Assembly (NCBI GenBank): GCA_001804805.1
Contig: MHBH01000033.1
Coordinates: forward strand, 1-62,881
Reading direction: 5' to 3'
DNA: 62,881 nt
Source: Lentisphaerae bacterium GWF2_49_21
Lineage (GTDB): Bacteria; Verrucomicrobiota; Lentisphaeria; Victivallales; GWF2-50-93
The notes below the pieces were generated by a model. It saw nothing but the letters and a program-made list of their open reading frames with translations. It ran no database searches and was not told the DNA's origin. Positions 8,410 to 57,818 of the stretch are shown one piece after another (the stretch's first letter is position 1; each line of letters opens with the position of its first letter). The translations under genes were made by a program, and so were the position numbers.

Positions 8410-8470
8410 GACAGGATTACAGGATTTTCATGATTAATTAATTCAATCCTGCCAATCCAGTTATCCTGTC
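8410..8470. repeat. GACAGGAT...ATCCTGTC miniature inverted repeat
   Basis: A 61-bp unit with inverted ends GACAGGATTACAGGATT and AATCCAGTTATCCTGTC. The same ends flank the GxxExxY gene (19970-19997 and 20391-20417). A second miniature copy lies at 44845-44903 and a half copy at 36654-36672. Confidence 0.8.
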
Positions 8471-8490: not shown

Positions 8491-9306
8491 ATGAAAATAG
8501 GAACTTGTGCAGATCCGAATGCCGGACAGATCCTCAAGGATGCCGGCTTTGATTTCATCGAGATGGGCGTCGGCGGAGCTCTCAAGCCCGACAAGCCCTA
8601 TGCGGAGTTTGTGACCGAACTCGACAGGATACAGAAAAGCCCCCTGCCATGTTTGGTCGTCAACTGCCTCATGCCGGGACACATGAAGATAACGGGTCCG
8701 GAGGTCAGCCTCCAGAGCATAAAGCTCCATCTGAGCACGGTCTGTGAGAGGGCTGAAGCCGCAGGGATCAAAAAGATCGTTTTTGGCTCCGGAGGCTCGA
8801 GGAAGTGCCCGGAGGGTTTTGACAGGAAGAAGGCTTTTGACCAGCTTGTCGAATTTGGGAAGATCCTCGGGGATGAGGCGGAAAAGCACAATGTCATAAT
8901 TGCGGTGGAGCCTCTGAACAAGAATGAATGCAACATGCTCAACTCCATTAAAAGGACGATGGACTATGTAAATAAGGTTGGGATACCGAGTTTCCGTCTC
9001 CATGCCGATTCCTTCCACTGGGGTATGGAGGATGAAGCGGACAAGGATTTCAGGGGAGCAAGCTCCCTTATTACTCATGCGCACATCGCCACATATAAAT
9101 CACGCTTGTCGCCAGGCTTCGAAGAGGCTGACTTCACAAGATTCTTTTCCCTGCTGAAACAGTGCGGATATGACGACACGATTGCGATAGAGGGAAAATG
9201 GGCGGCGTATGACTGCGGGTTCGGGATCAACATCAACGATCCGAAGGTCGCGGCGGATCCTTCGCACCTGCGGAAGGCAGTTGAGATAATAAAGAAATAT
9301 TTGTAA
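8491..9306 (+). CDS. Sugar phosphate isomerase/epimerase family, TIM barrel
   Basis: 271 residues with the layout of the AP-endonuclease-2/xylose-isomerase-like TIM barrel. Likely metal ligands are Glu in AVEPLN, Asp/His in LHADSFHWGMED, His in THAHIA and Glu in IAIEGKW. It is cytoplasmic and probably isomerises or epimerises a keto-sugar or a related polyol. The family covers many substrates, including tagatose/psicose epimerases, hydroxypyruvate isomerase and inosose dehydratase. ATG 8491 follows GAAAGGAAG at a good spacing. It stands between two repeat elements, so it is probably a single-gene unit. Confidence 0.82.
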   Translation: MKIGTCADPNAGQILKDAGFDFIEMGVGGALKPDKPYAEFVTELDRIQKSPLPCLVVNCLMPGHMKITGPEVSLQSIKLHLSTVCERAEAAGIKKIVFGSGGSRKCPEGFDRKKAFDQLVEFGKILGDEAEKHNVIIAVEPLNKNECNMLNSIKRTMDYVNKVGIPSFRLHADSFHWGMEDEADKDFRGASSLITHAHIATYKSRLSPGFEEADFTRFFSLLKQCGYDDTIAIEGKWAAYDCGFGININDPKVAADPSHLRKAVEIIKKYL

Positions 9307-9311
9307 TCTTT

Positions 9312-9389
9312 GGAGCGCCGGCATCCTTCGACAAGCTCAGGACAGGTCTTGCCGGCTATTATTAACTGCCAGCAAGATGCTGGCGCTCC
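9312..9389. repeat. Inverted repeat GGAGCGCCGGCATC...GATGCTGGCGCTCC
   Basis: The outer arms of 14 bases (9312-9325 and 9376-9389) pair with one mismatch, and an inner pair CCGGCATCC/TTGCCGG lies inside. It fills the gap between the isomerase and FAH genes and could also terminate transcription. Confidence 0.7.
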
Positions 9390-9409
9390 TATAATTTAAG
9401 GAATTCTCC

Positions 9410-16009: not shown

Positions 16010-16429
16010 TTAGATTAACCTGTAATCAAGTTCCAGTAATCCTGCGGATTTCGCAAGGTTCATGTCGGATGTGACGATAGGAATGTTGTTTGAGAAGGCG
16101 GTCGCAAGATGCAGCGCGTCCAGGGATCTGAGAGCGTTGTCGAAGCTCGAGATAAAGTTTCTGGCGATTGCGAAATGCGAAGGTTCAATCTGAATTACAG
16201 TGAAATAATCCCCTTTCATATGAAGTTCAAACTGTGAGGATATCCTGTGGGCGTCTTTAGCCGAGATAGCTTTCTCCCTGACCTTGCGTGACAGGGCGGA
16301 ATAGAACTCGAGTTCCACAAGTTTGCTGATGGCGATATCATCGGAGCTTGTGAGCAGTTTTTCAACTTCAGAACTTTTCTCTTCGGCGCAATAATATGAG
16401 ACAACGATGGAGGTGTCCGCGTAAAACAT
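16010..16429 (-). CDS. PIN-domain toxin (VapC family)
   Basis: 139 residues. PIN acidic residues are present: Asp5 (FYADTSIVV), Glu in LVELEFYSAL, Asp in RSLDALHLA, and Asp in VTSDMNLAKSA. It should be an Mg2+-dependent endoribonuclease. It lies 2 bases downstream of a Phd-type antitoxin and is expressed with it. Confidence 0.88.
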   Translation of the reverse strand: MFYADTSIVVSYYCAEEKSSEVEKLLTSSDDIAISKLVELEFYSALSRKVREKAISAKDAHRISSQFELHMKGDYFTVIQIEPSHFAIARNFISSFDNALRSLDALHLATAFSNNIPIVTSDMNLAKSAGLLELDYRLI

Positions 16430-16431
16430 GA

Positions 16432-16668
16432 TTAGAACCTTTCCTCTTCACGTTGTTTCAGCAAGGTCTTTCCGAGAGTTTCGCCTTTTATCTTGATGCT
16501 GTCGCGGAATTTCCTCATCGAGGGTAGGCGCTTCTTGTTTTCATGATATGGCGACAGTCCTGCAATCTTTTTGCCATGACGCGTGATGACAACAGTTTCG
16601 CCGTTTGAAACCGCATCAATCAGCGTACAGAACTGCGCCCTGGCTTCTTTTACACTCAATTGCTTCAT
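16432..16668 (-). CDS. Phd/YefM-type antitoxin
   Basis: 78 residues from ATG 16668, which has AAGGATATC upstream; the longer start at 16692 overlaps the probable operator. MKQLSVKEARAQF and GETVVITRHGKKIAGL are the Phd/YefM DNA-binding domain. The C-terminal tail is charged and would bind the PIN toxin. Pairing of a Phd-type antitoxin with a PIN toxin is common. Confidence 0.88.
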   Translation of the reverse strand: MKQLSVKEARAQFCTLIDAVSNGETVVITRHGKKIAGLSPYHENKKRLPSMRKFRDSIKIKGETLGKTLLKQREEERF

Positions 16669-16684
16669 GTTGATATCCTTCTTT

Positions 16685-16705
16685 ATGTACATAATATATG
16701 TCCAT
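16685..16705 (-). promoter_or_regulatory. Dyad upstream of the Phd antitoxin, likely operator
   Basis: ATGTACATA-ATA-TATGTCCAT is an inverted repeat with 9-bp arms and one mismatch, 17 bases upstream of the antitoxin ATG. This is the usual place for autoregulatory binding by Phd-type antitoxins. Confidence 0.5.
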
Positions 16706-17605: not shown

Positions 17606-17653
17606 AGATTGAATCAAAATCGAAAATTAAAAATAGAAAATGAGGAGAATACA

Positions 17654-19957
17654 ATGGGTAATTATTACAGCGATCTCGGACCGGATTTTAAAAAACGCAC
17701 ATACAAGCTTCGTGACATCGAAGGCTATTCCTACAACAGGATGATCAAGGATGATCTCAAGGATGGAGCAGTTAAAAAAGAGGAGATACTTGAACTCTAC
17801 GAGTGCATGCTTGTTGTCCGTGAGTTCGAAGAGATGATCCTCAAGCTGCGCACCGGTGCCTACGAATGCATCAAGGATTATGAGTACCGCGGTCCTACAC
17901 ATCTTTCCATTGGACAGGAGGCGACCTGCGCAGGAGCATGTTCGATACTCAACATATCCGACTACATAACCTCCACCCACCGCGGACACGGCGACTCTAT
18001 CTCCAAGGGATATTTCGCGATACGCAAGATGAACGAGAAGGAACTTAAGGAACGCTGTCCGGAATTTGTGAATCTCGCAGGCGAGACTCTTCTTGAAGCC
18101 GTGATGCAGGATCATGTTTTCCGCACAATCGCAGAGCTTTTCGGAAAAGAGGCCGGTTATGGCAAAGGCCGCGGCGGCGGCATGCACATCTTCGATTTCA
18201 GAGTAGGGCATCTCGGTGCCAATGCGATCGTCGGCGGCGGGGTTCCAATCGCGACCGGCGCCTCAATGACCTGCCGTATCGACATCAACAAGGAGAACAA
18301 GGGCAAGGTCGTGTGCTGCTTTGCAGGAGATGGTGCGTATGCAAACGGCGTAGTCCTTGAAGCGCTCAACTGGGCCGCCCAGGACCAGTTTACAAACAAG
18401 AAGCTTACAAGCATCAATATCGGTCTCCCGATAATCTATTGCATCGTCAACAACCATTTCGGAATGACAGGCCGCGCCGACGGTGAAGTCACCGGAGTAG
18501 ACTGTCTCGCAAGAAGGGCTGCAGGATTCGACAACGACAACATGCACGCCGAGGTCGTGAACGGCATGGATGTCATGGCTGTTCGTGAAGCCCTTGTTAG
18601 AGCAAAGAAACTTGCAACGGAAGGAAACGGCCCTGTTCTGCTCGAACTCAACACATACCGCTACTACGGACATTCGCTTTCCGATCCGCGAAATGAATAC
18701 AGGACGAAGGACGAGGAAGAGAGATGGAAGCTGGTTGATCCTGTGACGGCATTCAGGAAACGTCTGCTGGATGAAGGAGTCTTCAAGGAGGACGTCCTCA
18801 ATGCGCTTGAGAAGAAGGTTGCTGAAAGAAATGCCAAGGCCGCAAGACAGGCAGTTGATTCCGCTGATCCGGATCCGAAGGATGTCATCAAATACATGTA
18901 TACCGACAGTGTCTGCGAAAAAGTTCCTTCAGCCTATCAGAAGATCGACAAGAAGGGAGCGCGTCCGTCAATCAAACGTGATTCCGAGGGCAGGGTCAAT
19001 TACCGAGATGCCATCAAGGAGGGAATCCTCGAGGAGATGGAACGTGATGCGCGTGTCGTAGTATATGGAGAAGACGTTGCGGACTATGGCGGTGCATTTA
19101 AGCTCACCAAGGGGCTTCTTGAATATTTCGGACGAGGCCGCATTTTCAATACGCCGATATCCGAGGCTTGCATCTGCGGTACCGGAGTTGGGATGGCAAT
19201 GACAGGATATCGTCCTGTCGTCGAGCTGATGTATATGGATTTTGCGCTTATGGCATCCGACCAGATTTCCAACCAGGCGGCGAAATGGCATTACATGACC
19301 GGTGGCAATGTCAAAGTCCCGATGGTCATACGCTGCAGCGTCGGCGGTGGCAAAGGATACGGCGGACAGCACTCGCAGTCGCTTGAATCGATGTTCTGCC
19401 ACATCCCCGGAACTTATGTCGCATATCCCTCCAATGCCTACGATGCGAAAGGGCTCATCAAGACGGCAATCCGTGATGACAATCCGGTAATCTTCGTCGA
19501 AGGTCAGCTCCTCTACGGAAACAAGGATGTTGTTCCCGAGGAAGAATACTTCATCCCGTTCGGTCAGGCGAAGATCGTAAAGGAAGGCAAGGACGTAACA
19601 TTTGTGGTCTGGGGACCGGCTGTTGTCGATGCCATCAAGGCAGCCAATAAGCTCGAGGAAGAAGGGATCAGCGTTGAAATAATTGATCCAAGGACGCTTG
19701 TTCCGTTTGACTGGCAGACTGTCTTTGAATCCGTGAGGAAAACAGGACGCTGCGTCGCGATAAGCCAGTGTGTCGACATCGGAAGTTATACAGGCGAGAT
19801 CGTTGCGCAGGTGACTGCAAATTGTTTTGATCACCTTGATGCTCCTGTAGTGAAGGTCGGTGCGAAGAACGGAATCGCCCCGCAGGCGTATTCGTTAGAA
19901 AAGGCCTTCCTGCCGTCGGTGGAAGATATGGTAGCAGCAGCAAGAAGCTTGAAATAA
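17654..19957 (+). CDS. 2-oxoacid dehydrogenase E1, fused alpha and beta subunits
   Basis: 767 residues from ATG 17654 (GAGGAGAATACA upstream). The alpha half carries HLSIGQEA, THRGHGDSI and the thiamine diphosphate motif GDGAYANG at 225 with NN at 266-267. The beta half begins near 447 (VNYRDAIKEGILEEM) and has YGEDVADYGGAFKLT, SVGGGKGYGGQHSQS and DPRTLVPFDW. One polypeptide therefore replaces the usual two subunits. It decarboxylates a 2-oxoacid and reductively acylates the E2 lipoyl group. Pyruvate, acetoin or branched-chain oxoacid are all possible. The matching E2 gene follows after an inserted GxxExxY gene. No E3 is in the window. Confidence 0.92.
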   Translation: MGNYYSDLGPDFKKRTYKLRDIEGYSYNRMIKDDLKDGAVKKEEILELYECMLVVREFEEMILKLRTGAYECIKDYEYRGPTHLSIGQEATCAGACSILNISDYITSTHRGHGDSISKGYFAIRKMNEKELKERCPEFVNLAGETLLEAVMQDHVFRTIAELFGKEAGYGKGRGGGMHIFDFRVGHLGANAIVGGGVPIATGASMTCRIDINKENKGKVVCCFAGDGAYANGVVLEALNWAAQDQFTNKKLTSINIGLPIIYCIVNNHFGMTGRADGEVTGVDCLARRAAGFDNDNMHAEVVNGMDVMAVREALVRAKKLATEGNGPVLLELNTYRYYGHSLSDPRNEYRTKDEEERWKLVDPVTAFRKRLLDEGVFKEDVLNALEKKVAERNAKAARQAVDSADPDPKDVIKYMYTDSVCEKVPSAYQKIDKKGARPSIKRDSEGRVNYRDAIKEGILEEMERDARVVVYGEDVADYGGAFKLTKGLLEYFGRGRIFNTPISEACICGTGVGMAMTGYRPVVELMYMDFALMASDQISNQAAKWHYMTGGNVKVPMVIRCSVGGGKGYGGQHSQSLESMFCHIPGTYVAYPSNAYDAKGLIKTAIRDDNPVIFVEGQLLYGNKDVVPEEEYFIPFGQAKIVKEGKDVTFVVWGPAVVDAIKAANKLEEEGISVEIIDPRTLVPFDWQTVFESVRKTGRCVAISQCVDIGSYTGEIVAQVTANCFDHLDAPVVKVGAKNGIAPQAYSLEKAFLPSVEDMVAAARSLK

Positions 19958-19969
19958 GATAAGAATTTC

Positions 19970-19997
19970 AGACAGGATAACAGGATTGACAGGATAA
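19970..19997. repeat. Left inverted repeat flanking the GxxExxY gene
   Basis: GACAGGATAACAGGATTGACAGGAT holds three CAGGAT boxes. It is the inverted counterpart of 20391-20417 and of the ends of the miniature copies at 8410-8470 and 44845-44903. Confidence 0.8.
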
Positions 19998-20003
19998 ATA
20001 ATT

Positions 20004-20435
20004 ATGGATTATGCACATAAGGAAATAACAGAAAAAATAATCAGTTGCTGTTATAATGTATATAATAAGATGGGATTTGGCTATTTGGAGTCAGTCTATG
20101 AGAAATGCCTGCTGATTGAATTGGAAAAGGCAGGATTGAAGTTCGAAGCTCAAAAGCCAATAAATGTTCTTTATGATGGCAAGCCAGTTGGGCAATTTGT
20201 AGCGGATATTCTGGTTGAAGACAGAGTGATTGTCGAACTGAAATCCGTGCAGCAGCTGGCAAAGGTTCATGAGGCTCAATTAGTGAACTATCTTGTGGCA
20301 ACTGATAAGCCTATTGGGCTTCTGATAAACTTTGGAGAAGAAAAAGTTCAGGTTAAGCGAAAGGTTAAGGATTTAAAAGATTTGAATAGTAATCCAGTAA
20401 ATCCTGTTATCCTGTTTAAAAGAATGTATTTCTAA
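20004..20435 (+). CDS. GxxExxY family protein
   Basis: 143 residues. The name motif is at GYLESVYEKCL. The family continues with FEAQKPINVLYDGKPVGQFVADILVEDRVIVELKSV, which holds a nuclease-like D...E-x-K pattern (Asp of ADILVED, Glu and Lys of ELKS) of the PD-(D/E)XK kind. Its biochemical function is not established. The last residues, SNPVNPVIL, are translated repeat sequence (20391-20417), so gene and repeat are fused. It splits the E1 and E2 genes of a dehydrogenase operon, which indicates insertion as a unit. Start ATG 20004 is the only sensible one and lacks a strong ribosome-binding site. Confidence 0.85.
   Translation: MDYAHKEITEKIISCCYNVYNKMGFGYLESVYEKCLLIELEKAGLKFEAQKPINVLYDGKPVGQFVADILVEDRVIVELKSVQQLAKVHEAQLVNYLVATDKPIGLLINFGEEKVQVKRKVKDLKDLNSNPVNPVILFKRMYF
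20391..20417. repeat. Right inverted repeat, inside the 3' end of the GxxExxY gene
   Basis: AATCCAGTAAATCCTGTTATCCTGT is the inverted partner of 19970-19997. It is read through as the C-terminal NPVNPVIL of the GxxExxY protein. Confidence 0.8.
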
Positions 20436-20449
20436 ATAATGAGGTGAAC

Positions 20450-21787
20450 ATGTCAATTTTAGTTCCGATACCCAAGCTCGGTCAGTCCGAAGAGACTGTC
20501 AAGATAGAGAAATGGCGCGTCAAGGAAGGCGACAAGATCAAGAAAGGGGACATCCTTTTCGAGGTCGAGACCGACAAGGCGGTACTTGAGGTCGAATCGC
20601 AGTTCGAAGGGACGCTTCTCAAGATAATAATCCCTGCTGGCAAGGAAGTTCCCGTGATGGCCACTTGCGCCGTCATCGGGAATCCCGGCGAGGAAATCCC
20701 GAAGATTGAGACGCCGAAGGCGCCTGAAAAGAAGGTTGAGGCAAAGAAACCGGCGCCAGCGGCGCCATCTGTCAAATCAGCCGCTACGTCCGCAGTACAG
20801 CAGGTCCAGCAACAGGTCTATTCCGCTCCAGCAGCTCCCGCATTCAAGCCAAAGCCGTCACCCAGGGCGAGGAAGTTCGCTGCGGATTACCTGATTGCTC
20901 TCGACAAGGTGACGGGCACAGGCGGTGATGTCGGACGCGTCACGGAAGCGGATGTGAGGAAATATCTTGAAAGCTCAGGATATCTTAAGAAGCTGATAAC
21001 CCCGACAGCTTTCAACCTTGCAAAGAAGGAGAAGCTCGAACTTCTCGCGATTGAGGGAAGTGGCGACAATGGTCGTGTCACTCTTGCCGATGTCAAGTCT
21101 GCGGCCTCCGAGAAACCCCGTGAATTCTCAAACATGAGGAAGATCATTGCACGCCGTCTCACTGAATCAAAGCAGCGCATTCCGCATTTCTATGTGACTG
21201 TTTCGATCGACATGACAGAAGTTGTAAAGAAACGGCAGGCGTTGAAAGAGCAGGGGATCAACCTGAGCGTGAATGTATTTATCATCAAGGCAGTCGCCCT
21301 TGCCCTTAAAGAATTTCCCATGATGAACGCAGAAAGCGACGGAATTACTGCTAAATATAAATCCAAGGTGAATATCGGAATAGCTGTCAGCCTGGAAAGC
21401 GGCCTTGTCGTTCCTGTTATCAGGAATGCCGACAAGAAGGCTCTTGACGAGATCCAGTCGGAAGTTGCGAACTTCGCAGAAAAGGCAAGGACAGGCAAGC
21501 TCCAGCCCGAGGAGATGAAGGGCGGGACTTTCACGATTTCGAACATGGGGATGCTGAACGTAGAGAACTTCTCAGCAATCATAAATCCCGGGGAATCTGC
21601 GATTCTCGCAGTTTCATCTGCAATGCCGACTCCGGTAGTCCGTGATGGACAGGTTGTTGTCCGCGACATGATGAAGGTTACGGTTAGCGCCGACCACCGT
21701 GTGGTTGACGGTTCCGATGGTGCGAAATTCGTAAACGCATTGAGGATGAAGCTGGAAAGCACCGAGTTCCTGAACAGGGAGATTTGA
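20450..21787 (+). CDS. 2-oxoacid dehydrogenase E2, dihydrolipoyl acyltransferase
   Basis: 445 residues from ATG 20450 (GAGGTG just upstream). The lipoyl domain has ETDKA with Lys43 as the lipoylation site. An Ala/Pro linker (about 95-135) follows. Two peripheral-subunit-binding domains come next, at about 137-173 (SPRARKFAADY...GRVTEADV) and 183-218 (TPTAFNLAKKE...GRVTLADV). The catalytic domain ends with DHRVVDG (His416, Asp420). It passes the acyl group from lipoamide to CoA. Tandem binding domains are unusual for an E2 with a single lipoyl domain. A palindrome copy at 21466 reads ANFA. Confidence 0.93.
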   Translation: MSILVPIPKLGQSEETVKIEKWRVKEGDKIKKGDILFEVETDKAVLEVESQFEGTLLKIIIPAGKEVPVMATCAVIGNPGEEIPKIETPKAPEKKVEAKKPAPAAPSVKSAATSAVQQVQQQVYSAPAAPAFKPKPSPRARKFAADYLIALDKVTGTGGDVGRVTEADVRKYLESSGYLKKLITPTAFNLAKKEKLELLAIEGSGDNGRVTLADVKSAASEKPREFSNMRKIIARRLTESKQRIPHFYVTVSIDMTEVVKKRQALKEQGINLSVNVFIIKAVALALKEFPMMNAESDGITAKYKSKVNIGIAVSLESGLVVPVIRNADKKALDEIQSEVANFAEKARTGKLQPEEMKGGTFTISNMGMLNVENFSAIINPGESAILAVSSAMPTPVVRDGQVVVRDMMKVTVSADHRVVDGSDGAKFVNALRMKLESTEFLNREI

Positions 21788-21951: not shown

Positions 21952-22158
21952 ATGAGTATTGCAGAGCTCAAGGAAATGTCCACAATTGAACGAATCCAGA
22001 CTATGGAGATTTTATGGGACATGCTTTCTTCCGAACAGGAAAACATCAAATCTCCTGAATGGCATGGCAGAGTTCTTAAGGAACGTCAGGGAAAAATAGC
22101 CAAAGGGAAAATGAAATTCATTTCTTTGGATCAGTTGAAAGACCATTTTCGTAAATGA
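21952..22158 (+). CDS. Addiction-module antitoxin (short RelB/ParD-like family)
   Basis: 68 residues with the layout of the small addiction-module family: an opening amphipathic helix (SIAELKEMSTIERIQTMEILWDML), a central SPEWHGRVLKER and a C-terminal SLDQLKDHF. It overlaps the toxin start by 4 bases (ATGA). It has no obvious DNA-binding domain of its own, as usual for this family. Confidence 0.82.
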   Translation: MSIAELKEMSTIERIQTMEILWDMLSSEQENIKSPEWHGRVLKERQGKIAKGKMKFISLDQLKDHFRK

Positions 22159-22475
22159 ATCCAAGAGAAGTCATTATTTCCGAAGATGCCTTCTCTGATC
22201 TCGACGCTGGCAAGTTGTTTTATAATAATCGTGAAGCAGGTGTTGGTCAATACTTCATCGATTCACTAATTGCCGATCTTGAATCACTCAGGTTTTATTC
22301 CGGCATTCACATCAAATGTTTTGATTGCCACAGGATGCTTTCAAAAAGATTCCCATTCGCAATTTATTACAGCATAGACGAAGAAAGGGTGTCTGTTATA
22401 GCAGTCTTAGATATGAGAAGAAATCCCACTTGGATTGGAAAACAAATCAGGAAAAGAACTTCAAGATACAGGTAA
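22155..22475 (+). CDS. RelE/ParE-superfamily toxin
   Basis: 106 residues. The pattern of EDAFSDLDAGKLFYNNREAGVGQYFIDSLIADLESL, a basic FPFAIYYSIDEERVSVIAVLDMRRNP block and a terminal Arg tail fits the ParE/RelE fold. It is translationally coupled to the antitoxin. Whether it cleaves mRNA or inhibits gyrase cannot be decided from sequence. Confidence 0.83.
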   Translation: MNPREVIISEDAFSDLDAGKLFYNNREAGVGQYFIDSLIADLESLRFYSGIHIKCFDCHRMLSKRFPFAIYYSIDEERVSVIAVLDMRRNPTWIGKQIRKRTSRYR

Positions 22476-22594: not shown

Positions 22595-22619
22595 ATAAAA
22601 TTTGTTCTGCAAAATTTAT
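22595..22619. repeat. Small AT palindrome at a gene boundary
   Basis: ATAAAATTTG-TTCTG-CAAAATTTAT has 10-bp arms with one mismatch. On the minus strand it supplies the TAA stop of the RelE toxin. Related palindromes lie at 6432, 6482, 27186 and 31133. Confidence 0.6.
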
Positions 22620-22891
22620 TTATAGACTTTGTCGTGGCTGCCGATGTCGAGGAGGAATATTTCCTTTGCGGTGATTTCTATCGTTATGACAATCCGGTAT
22701 GAGTAGGTGAGGCTTACAGAGGATTTGCCTTTGTGGATACCTTTCAGATGATGGAAGCGCAGGGATGGATTTTGGGGATTCTCCTGAAGCTTTCTTGCGA
22801 CGTCTTCAAAGACAGGTTTAAGCTCAGGATGTTTTTTAAAGAACCTTTTTGCCGTTCTCAGGAAAGTATCGGTCCAGACAAGGGAATACAT
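22616..22891 (-). CDS. RelE/YafQ-type toxin
   Basis: 91 residues. FLRTAKRFFKKHPELKPVFEDVARKLQENP, LRFHHLKGIHKGKSSVSLTYSYRIV and the end IFLLDIGSHDKVY are the RelE/YafQ core. It would cleave mRNA at the ribosome. The antitoxin gene lies 168 bases upstream with a repeat element in between, whereas these pairs normally overlap or touch. Its stop codon is inside a small palindrome at 22595-22619. Confidence 0.83.
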   Translation of the reverse strand: MYSLVWTDTFLRTAKRFFKKHPELKPVFEDVARKLQENPQNPSLRFHHLKGIHKGKSSVSLTYSYRIVITIEITAKEIFLLDIGSHDKVYK

Positions 22892-22926
22892 GTTAAGTGT
22901 CTTTGTTTCAGGGTTCTACGTTTTAA

Positions 22927-23040
22927 GCGTATGTAAAATTCGAAACTCGAAGCATGAAATACGGAACAAATCCGAAAATCGAAGTTTAAAATTTTCAAAC
23001 ATTTGAATTTTATCTATTATTGTTTCGGATTTCGAGTTTG
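22927..23040. repeat. Repeat between antitoxin and toxin (CGAAA-rich)
   Basis: The unit includes TTCGAAACTCGAAGCATGAAA, AATCCGAAAATCGAAG and the inverted GTTTCGGATTTCGAGTTTGG. A shorter relative is at 14275-14304. It fills the 168-base gap between the antitoxin (23060) and toxin (22891) genes. Confidence 0.65.
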
Positions 23041-23059
23041 GATTGCGGGCCAGGCCCGC

Positions 23060-23314
23060 TTAATCTTCCTTATCGATTTCAGACATGAGTTGTTTCAAGG
23101 TGCCCTTATGGACTCTTCCGGACTTGATATCCGTCTCTGATGCAGCAAGTCTTGCCTCGGTGAGATCATCGATGAGTTGCTGGTAGTCCTTTCCGGAGAT
23201 GACCACGTAGCTTGGAAGGTTGTTCTTAATGATATGGACAGGCCCATTCCCGAGAAGCGGATCGACCGCGGCAATCCCTCTCCGTTTTATTTCAGCCGAT
23301 GCAAGCGCATTCAT
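23060..23314 (-). CDS. Phd/RelB-like antitoxin
   Basis: 84 residues. GPVHIIKNNLPSYVVISGKDYQQLIDDLTEARL is the typical central strand-helix of Phd/YefM-like antitoxins; the C-terminal acidic part (SETDIKSG...LMSEIDKED) should bind the toxin. The partner is most likely the RelE toxin at 22616-22891. A 28-bp palindrome lies just upstream. Confidence 0.8.
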   Translation of the reverse strand: MNALASAEIKRRGIAAVDPLLGNGPVHIIKNNLPSYVVISGKDYQQLIDDLTEARLAASETDIKSGRVHKGTLKQLMSEIDKED

Positions 23315-44844: not shown

Positions 44845-44903
44845 GACAGGATTACAGGATTAACATGATTGATTTCATATCCAGTAAATCCAGTTATCCT
44901 GTC
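44845..44903. repeat. Miniature GACAGGAT...ATCCTGTC inverted repeat
   Basis: 59 bp with ends GACAGGATTACAGGATT and AATCCAGTTATCCTGTC. The centre contains an ATGATTGATTTC-like remnant. It lies between the IclR and sulfatase 4 genes and is nearly the same as 8410-8470. Confidence 0.8.
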
Positions 44904-57709: not shown

Positions 57710-57818
57710 TTGGAGTGCGGTGATTCATCACCGCTTTGTGTCGCAAAATTCATTTTGCGATTTATAAACGAGAAATAAATTTCTCTGAACAAGGCGGTAA
57801 TAAATTACCGCACTCCAA
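57710..57818. repeat. TTGGAGTGCGGT...ACCGCACTCCAA nested hairpin repeat
   Basis: Outer arms of 12 bases are perfect. Inside are GCGGTGATTCATCACCGC, TCGCAAAATTCATTTTGCGA and GCGGTAATAAATTACCGC. A further TCAGGGGC/GCCCTGA stem precedes it (57690-57708). It fills most of the 308-base gap 57641-57948; no gene is seen there. Confidence 0.85.

Follow-up and report, generated by a model that had tools for sequence, protein, structure and literature searches.

The window, a stretch of 62,881 nucleotides from Lentisphaerae bacterium GWF2_49_21, contains on its forward strand a gene for a 143-amino-acid GxxExxY protein (20004-20435; PD-(D/E)XK nuclease fold, TIGR04256/PF13366). It lies between a gene for a pyruvate dehydrogenase-type E1 with fused alpha and beta parts (17609-19957, +; the TTG start is uncertain) and one for the dihydrolipoyl acyltransferase, E2 (20444-21787, +). 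The GxxExxY gene is bounded by a left arm (19966-20000, +), in which three iterated words are arranged as GACAGGATA-ACAGGATT-GACAGGATA with the sequence GACAGGATAACAGGATTGACAGGAT at 19971-19995, and by an inverted right arm (20387-20421, +) that reads AATCCAGT-AAATCCTGTT-ATCCTGTT. These arms are 35 nt each, 83% complementary and separated by 386 nt, and both are iterations of the word ACAGGAT; the left arm is also present in the syntenic unit of a relative, G002. The open reading frame continues in frame across the right arm, so that the arm supplies the C-terminal tail of the protein, ..SNPVNPVILF..; the conserved GxxExxY domain (Pfam residues 6-119) stops upstream of this arm-encoded tail. 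Two gene-less miniatures are found elsewhere in the window, one of 61 bp in an operon gap (8410-8470, +) and one of 59 bp (44845-44903, +). The sequence-only reading of this DNA had placed the gene between E1 and E2 of one operon, bounded it by inverted CAGGAT-rich repeats, the right one translated as the C-terminus, and recognised the 61-bp and 59-bp units as having the same ends but no gene; each of these points held. Absent from it were five further GxxExxY genes in the same genome (one of them broken), most of which have other iterated words.

Several familiar kinds of element could be set aside at this locus. There is no rRNA match in the window, and the unit, sitting between pyruvate dehydrogenase genes and carrying no S23 ORF, is not an rRNA intervening sequence. 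There is also no Rfam intron match in the window and the unit is intergenic, so that it is not a group I or group II intron or an intein with a homing endonuclease. No known transposase or recombinase gene occurs between the terminal repeats, where the single ORF has PDDEXK_3 as its only family match.

Membership of TIGR04256/PF13366 (PDDEXK_3) is clear, with profile scores of 152.8 bits against a cut-off of 35 and of 146 against 22. The GxxExxY motif (G26, E29, Y32) and the catalytic residues D68, E78 and K80 are invariant in an alignment of 31 sequences. The AlphaFold2 model of the window protein (pLDDT 88.7) matched SSO0001, which is Cas4-like, with a Z of 10.2, and restriction enzymes and Holliday-junction resolvases with lower, tied Z (Hjc Z 7.3); the nearest solved folds are thus general nucleases and include no transposases. 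A sequence search of solved structures gave only weak matches, mostly to T7 endonuclease I (E 0.038). The predicted fold supports a nuclease and nothing more specific, and no particular function was assigned from it; restriction enzymes, Cas4 and resolvases all match at similar Z. A link to defence was also considered and not adopted, since PADLOC gave only weak similarity to Cas4-like nucleases and PHROGs nothing firm. In the viral contigs searched there was no GxxExxY protein of this clade. The dN/dS ratio is 0.03 in comparison with the G002 copy and ranges from 0.03 to 0.10 across comparisons, which is strong purifying selection and shows that the protein is kept functional.

The association of gene and arms is not peculiar to this locus. 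At an inverted-arm score of >=14, inverted arms flank 77 of 117 GxxExxY genes but only 2 of the 246 ORFs taken as controls from these loci (P=3e-34), and this comparison shows that the arms belong to the gene; about a third of the GxxExxY genes are without clear arms at this threshold. Control ORFs were used because a control based on mismatched pairs of arms was inflated by words common to several phyla. The usual arm design is about three copies of a 7-bp word with short spacers at a pitch of about 9 bp, and the self-match of the arms peaks at lag 9, the best lag being 8-10 in 70 of 85. The window genome has six GxxExxY genes, including the broken one, and the words that flank these paralogues are ACAGGAT, CACAGAG, CACAGACT, CACTAAT and a GCACAAAG-like word. 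Across the 41 genomes searched within this order, most GxxExxY genes have iterated-word arms. The alignment of 31 sequences proved too heterogeneous for scanning the whole collection, so that the broad sample was drawn from one protein clade (A2); scanning the GTDB species genomes with it yielded 80 loci in more than 20 phyla, mostly with the same architecture. In Bacteroides finegoldii, a human gut species, a unit with a 30-bp CACAGAG repeat follows radA. Gene-bearing units (n=55) were sense to both neighbours in 35 cases and antisense to both in 5.

Homogenisation of arms by gene conversion was considered and rejected, arm similarity within and between elements being 0.69 vs 0.75 for ACAGGAT and 0.84 vs 0.84 for CACAGAG; the same test also revealed that miniatures have two distinguishable ends. 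On a Fusobacteria plasmid (L184:1400-2000) the flanks of the GxxExxY gene are direct and not inverted repeats. A diverged GxxExxY-like protein of 239 amino acids with AGCAGAATAATT arms (L082) occurs in G011, where ACAGGAT and CACTAAT repeats are abundant.

The gene-less units are far more numerous than the two in the window. Searching the 5.9-Mb genome for ACAGGATNNACAGGAT with one mismatch gave 77 matches, compared with 1 for the reversed pattern, and BLAST with the 61-bp unit gave 49 matches, some sites being counted on both strands. About 25 full-length copies, including the 61-bp and 59-bp units, share one 66-bp consensus, and the 22 that were aligned define it as the asymmetric GACAGGATTACAGGATTTtCAtGATT..loop..ATCcTGTnAATCCaGTTATCCTGTC. 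Hairpin folding is strong, with z of -4.5 and -4.9 for the units at 8410-8470 and 44845-44903, respectively, and -6.3 for the consensus. Among the 22 aligned copies the two ends can be told apart, both orientations are present, and nearly all have a T at -2 and an A at +2; apart from these two bases and a position in operon gaps, the search for a conserved integration target was negative. No target-site duplication (k=2-12) was detected at the 22 miniatures, and one Thioalkalivibrio site has a degenerate AGGCCCTT-like match. Miniatures lie in operon gaps a few bases past stop codons (23 between co-directional, 4 between convergent and 2 between divergent genes), in the same orientation as transcription in 6 cases and opposite to it in 11.

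Comparable miniatures occur in other genomes. In G047 there are 97 word-pair sites against 1 for the control, mostly inverted pairs 50-180 bp apart, and additionally one gene-bearing unit of 485 bp. The CACAGAG miniatures of this genome (L295-L314) are nested: within an outer GAAGTGAAG palindrome lie the CACAGAG arms, and these frequently enclose a further, GCGCCGCAGGC palindrome. In the order of the window genome, 17 genomes have GxxExxY and 13 of these contain CACTAAT pairs, whereas none of the 24 that lack GxxExxY does (P=1.4e-7, with shared ancestry not taken into account). In G001, 9 of 12 CACTAAT sites are on the 241-kb contig that carries the cognate gene, several of them near it. On contig C92 of G001, between 95 and 145 kb, CCACTAATCGACACTAAT copies are clustered in cis with their GxxExxY gene, as though hopping locally. 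G001 and G003 also have many ACAGGAT miniatures, and no ACAGGAT-type gene was found in either; it follows that miniatures can persist or move without the cognate protein.

Analysis of orthologous sites was informative about the history of the units. The clearest instance is one junction between two co-directional genes in Thioalkalivibrio, at which the unit is absent in eight genomes and three different protein-plus-word units occupy the place in seven others. Only a short, empty gap separates the genes in G068 (about 24 bp), G055 and G064, and G059, G062, G066, G067 and G082 likewise have no unit. G050 and G065 carry a CACAGAG unit; in G063, G061 and G083 the unit has the word CACGAAG, and in G069 and G060 it is of the GGAAGAAG type. 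Each type has its own GxxExxY protein, with a mutual identity of 64-68%. The CACAGAG and CACGAAG units begin at the same base beside a remnant arm, which indicates that the site has been reused. At the E1-E2 junction of the window, the GxxExxY unit is common to G000 and G002, an S23 gene is present in G001, G004 and G012, and G005 and G006 have neither. The miniature at 8410-8470 is present at the orthologous place in G003 and replaced by other sequence in G001. The units of L035 and L107 have a coding identity of 93.6% and complete palindromes on both sides, in flanks that are not syntenic. Several other units are syntenic, and hence old, within the genus, so that turnover is slow. Comparison therefore shows that orthologous operon gaps have acquired units, lost them or exchanged one for another, with empty and filled alleles among relatives at the Thioalkalivibrio junction and also at E1-E2. 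Neither of two outcomes that would have refuted mobility was seen, namely the gene in place in the same operon of all relatives without repeat ends, or repeats scattered at random that never flank the gene.

The words themselves track the protein and not the host, and this too is shown by comparison across phyla. Over 2758 cross-phylum pairs, protein identity and arm similarity are correlated with a Spearman coefficient of 0.452, the best of 2000 permutations reaching 0.185, and median arm similarity rises from 0.17 at protein identity <30% to 0.72 at >70%. Prediction of the word class from the 5 nearest proteins of other phyla succeeded for 46 of 54 loci, compared with at most 38 under permutation, and words differ among the paralogues of one genome. 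One exception is the Thioalkalivibrio protein P1, which is not closest to the other proteins with its word. These statistics do not rest on independent sequences, and part of the signal comes from whole units having been transferred horizontally, but such transfer is itself unit-like behaviour. The pattern is what would be expected of a protein that recognises its own ends, an inference resting on co-variation only, without binding or cutting data. The suggestion in the sequence-only reading of a mobile unit with gene-less derivatives is thus supported by presence and absence at junctions, by the near-identical unit in non-syntenic flanks, by the gene-less copies and by the joint inheritance of words and their proteins across phyla. 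The comparative evidence supports mobility well, although movement has not been shown experimentally.

We consider it likely that these elements are REPtron-like mobile units in which a word-specific GxxExxY nuclease spreads both the unit and its miniatures, with the binding, cutting, copying and insertion steps all being inferred. The GxxExxY protein would recognise its own iterated word array and would nick or cut the palindrome, as hairpin or cruciform, that the arms form; host repair may then copy the unit, or its gene, to another place. That no target-site duplication was found would favour such a break-and-repair or hairpin route over a classical transposase. Expression is probably driven by the host operon, as the gene is usually sense between co-directional genes (35 vs 5). 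Gene-less units may arise by deletion between the arms and could still be acted on in trans, in the way that RAYTs act on REPs. The miniatures may be such deletion products, or they may instead be the primary element, which later gained a gene. That the GxxExxY protein itself does the moving is inferred and remains unproven. Weighing against the reading as a whole are the failure to find a target-site duplication at the 22 miniatures, the third or so of GxxExxY genes without clear arms, the ACAGGAT miniatures of G001 and G003 without a cognate gene, the old syntenic units within the genus, the general-nuclease folds, the Thioalkalivibrio protein P1 and the direct flanks on the L184 plasmid.

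The alternative that deserves most attention, though we regard it as unlikely, is that some other host enzyme, or replication errors at hairpins, spreads the palindromes, and that the GxxExxY protein merely rides along as a passenger or controls the process, for instance as a resolvase limiting palindrome damage, and stays between the arms because it depends on them. In its favour are the ACAGGAT miniatures of G001, G003 and G011, for which no cognate gene was found, the failure to find a target-site duplication, and a fold that resembles Holliday-junction resolvases (Hjc Z 7.3) with weak similarity to T7 endonuclease I (E 0.038). However, the matching of word and protein over more than 20 phyla and their joint replacement need a specific partnership, and CACTAAT repeats are confined to genomes with GxxExxY. 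Considerably less probable is an element acting at the RNA level in the manner of rRNA intervening sequences, the transcript hairpin being cut by RNase III and the element spread via RNA. The strong hairpins and the sense bias of gene-bearing units would suit it, as would the S23 proteins of rRNA intervening sequences, with their parallel iterated-word arms and the excision of these sequences by RNase III (PMC4990558). Against it, miniatures occur in both orientations (6 same, 11 opposite), the fold is of DNA-nuclease type, the unit has no reverse transcriptase, and a need for expression could also explain the sense bias.

There is similarly little to recommend an autoregulated DNA-binding protein, with the arms as operators and the miniatures as the operators of a regulon, as in the proposal for TAACTGA repeats. 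Iterated words do resemble binding arrays, and heptamer repeats have been proposed as post-transcriptional regulators (PMC4679880), but the miniatures are not in promoters and lie past stop codons in operon gaps, their sites differ between species, and the catalytic residues are invariant. An ordinary gene with chance repeats, or an assembly artefact, can be all but excluded: no evidence was found in support, while the reversed-pattern control (77 vs 1), the control ORFs (77/117 vs 2/246) and the G047 control (97 vs 1) refute it, and the same architecture is present in the single-strain genomes of Thioalkalivibrio ALJ16 and Bacteroides finegoldii.

Among known systems, REPtrons (REP + RAYT; PMC3733652) provide the closest parallel in function, with a nuclease-type gene flanked by palindromic repeats, numerous gene-less intergenic copies per genome, several word families and a location mostly in transcribed gaps. 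The GxxExxY unit differs in its protein, which is PD-(D/E)XK and not an HUH (Y1) REP-associated tyrosine transposase, in its consensus GACAGGATTACAGG...CCAGTTATCCTGTC, which has no GTAG or CGTC tag, and in its arms of iterated 7-bp words at a pitch of about 9 bp, whose word follows the protein clade over more than 20 phyla. The likeness is therefore one of function, with protein, arm design and breadth all different, and without experimental demonstration of movement. MITEs with their mobilising IS elements likewise consist of short gene-less inverted-repeat units beside rare gene-bearing units with the same ends, but the GxxExxY unit has no transposase gene, no target-site duplication that could be found, and asymmetric iterated arms. 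The hupL MITE of Thiomargarita (PMC4853749) has likewise been proposed to be linked with a PD-(D/E)XK nuclease; that protein, however, is of the PD-(D/E)XK_2 family (PF12784, YhgA-like), and the element has an ordinary 19-bp inverted repeat and 10-bp direct repeats and is known from a single organism. The STRR heptanucleotides of cyanobacteria and the TAACTGA repeats of Beggiatoaceae (PMC4679880) are similarly short iterated words in gaps, but have been described as direct repeats of unknown cause, and no protein linked to either was found in the open-access literature searched. The author of the TAACTGA study raised the possibility that a protein binding the repeats is itself the mobile element (PMC4679880).

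The rRNA intervening sequences of Coxiella and Leptospira (PMC4990558) resemble the GxxExxY unit in having a single small ORF within a long inverted repeat, although no rRNA insertion site was seen for GxxExxY. Their protein is S23 (PMC4990558), and S23 genes outside rRNA share with GxxExxY both the iterated-word inverted arms and the E1-E2 operon junction; the S23 protein is unrelated to GxxExxY and its arms have a period of 7 bp as against about 9 bp. Of the genes for S23 four-helix bundles, 13 of 20 in the same genomes have inverted iterated arms, as do 8 of 8 on plasmids of Cyanobacteria and Chloroflexi, where the arms are heptamers; the period of the S23 arms is strictly 7 bp, with a self-match of 0.70 at lag 7. 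S23 genes thus form a system parallel to the GxxExxY units, with 7-bp-period arms. In form the plasmid heptamers resemble the cyanobacterial STRR repeats, and by this likeness alone the two may be the same thing; to our knowledge no protein has been linked to the latter. At the E1-E2 junctions of G001, G004 and G012 (L115, L117, L119) the S23 gene is accompanied by TTCG-rich iterated repeats. On the plasmids (L315-L322) the S23 genes are in operons of defence and other genes with inverted tandem heptamers around them, one lying between cas2 and cas1 (L319) and another adjoining DISARM drmD (L320).

A bolder reading is that GxxExxY nucleases and S23 proteins drive two parallel classes of mobile palindromic DNA that extend over nearly all bacteria, a small protein in each case evolving together with an iterated DNA 'address' that changes freely. 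Taken as a whole we lean slightly against it. If true, it would explain much of the interspersed repeat content of environmental bacteria that so far lacks an explanation (CACAGAG, CACGAAG, ACAGGAT, cyanobacterial heptamers), as well as the rRNA intervening sequences. In the open-access literature searched (bioRxiv excluded), no description of a link between GxxExxY and repeats, or between S23 and arms, was found; in the same literature GxxExxY was mentioned only in passing, in two papers, PF13366 in one and TIGR04256 not at all, and the arm strings, searched as text in open-access papers, appeared in unrelated papers only. GxxExxY proteins are widely annotated and of unknown function, and repeats of the CACAGAG/CACGAAG type are unexplained in many phyla, so that linking the two gives the family a testable role. 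The unit would be a mobile element that has no recognised transposase, and its naturally occurring protein-word pairs offer ready material for work on the evolution of DNA recognition.

Other repeats and small genes in the window may be mentioned. Three copies of the Acido-Lenti-1 RNA (RF01687; 790-945, 48494-48661 and 54058-54225) are each inside a larger nested palindrome with arms of 40 or 28 nt that are 82 nt apart, which suggests another family of gene-less palindromes and perhaps also points to a Lentisphaera-like host. A palindromic repeat at 9305-9396 (GGAGCGCCGGCATC..GATGCTGGCGCTCC) has numerous matches in the relatives G001 and G003, and an imperfect 53-nt palindrome at 57710-57818 (TTGGAGTGCGGTGATTCATCACCGC..) is possibly a further interspersed repeat. 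Beside the operon are three small two-gene pairs (16010-16692, 21952-22475 and 22616-23314) that look toxin-antitoxin-like, by eye only.
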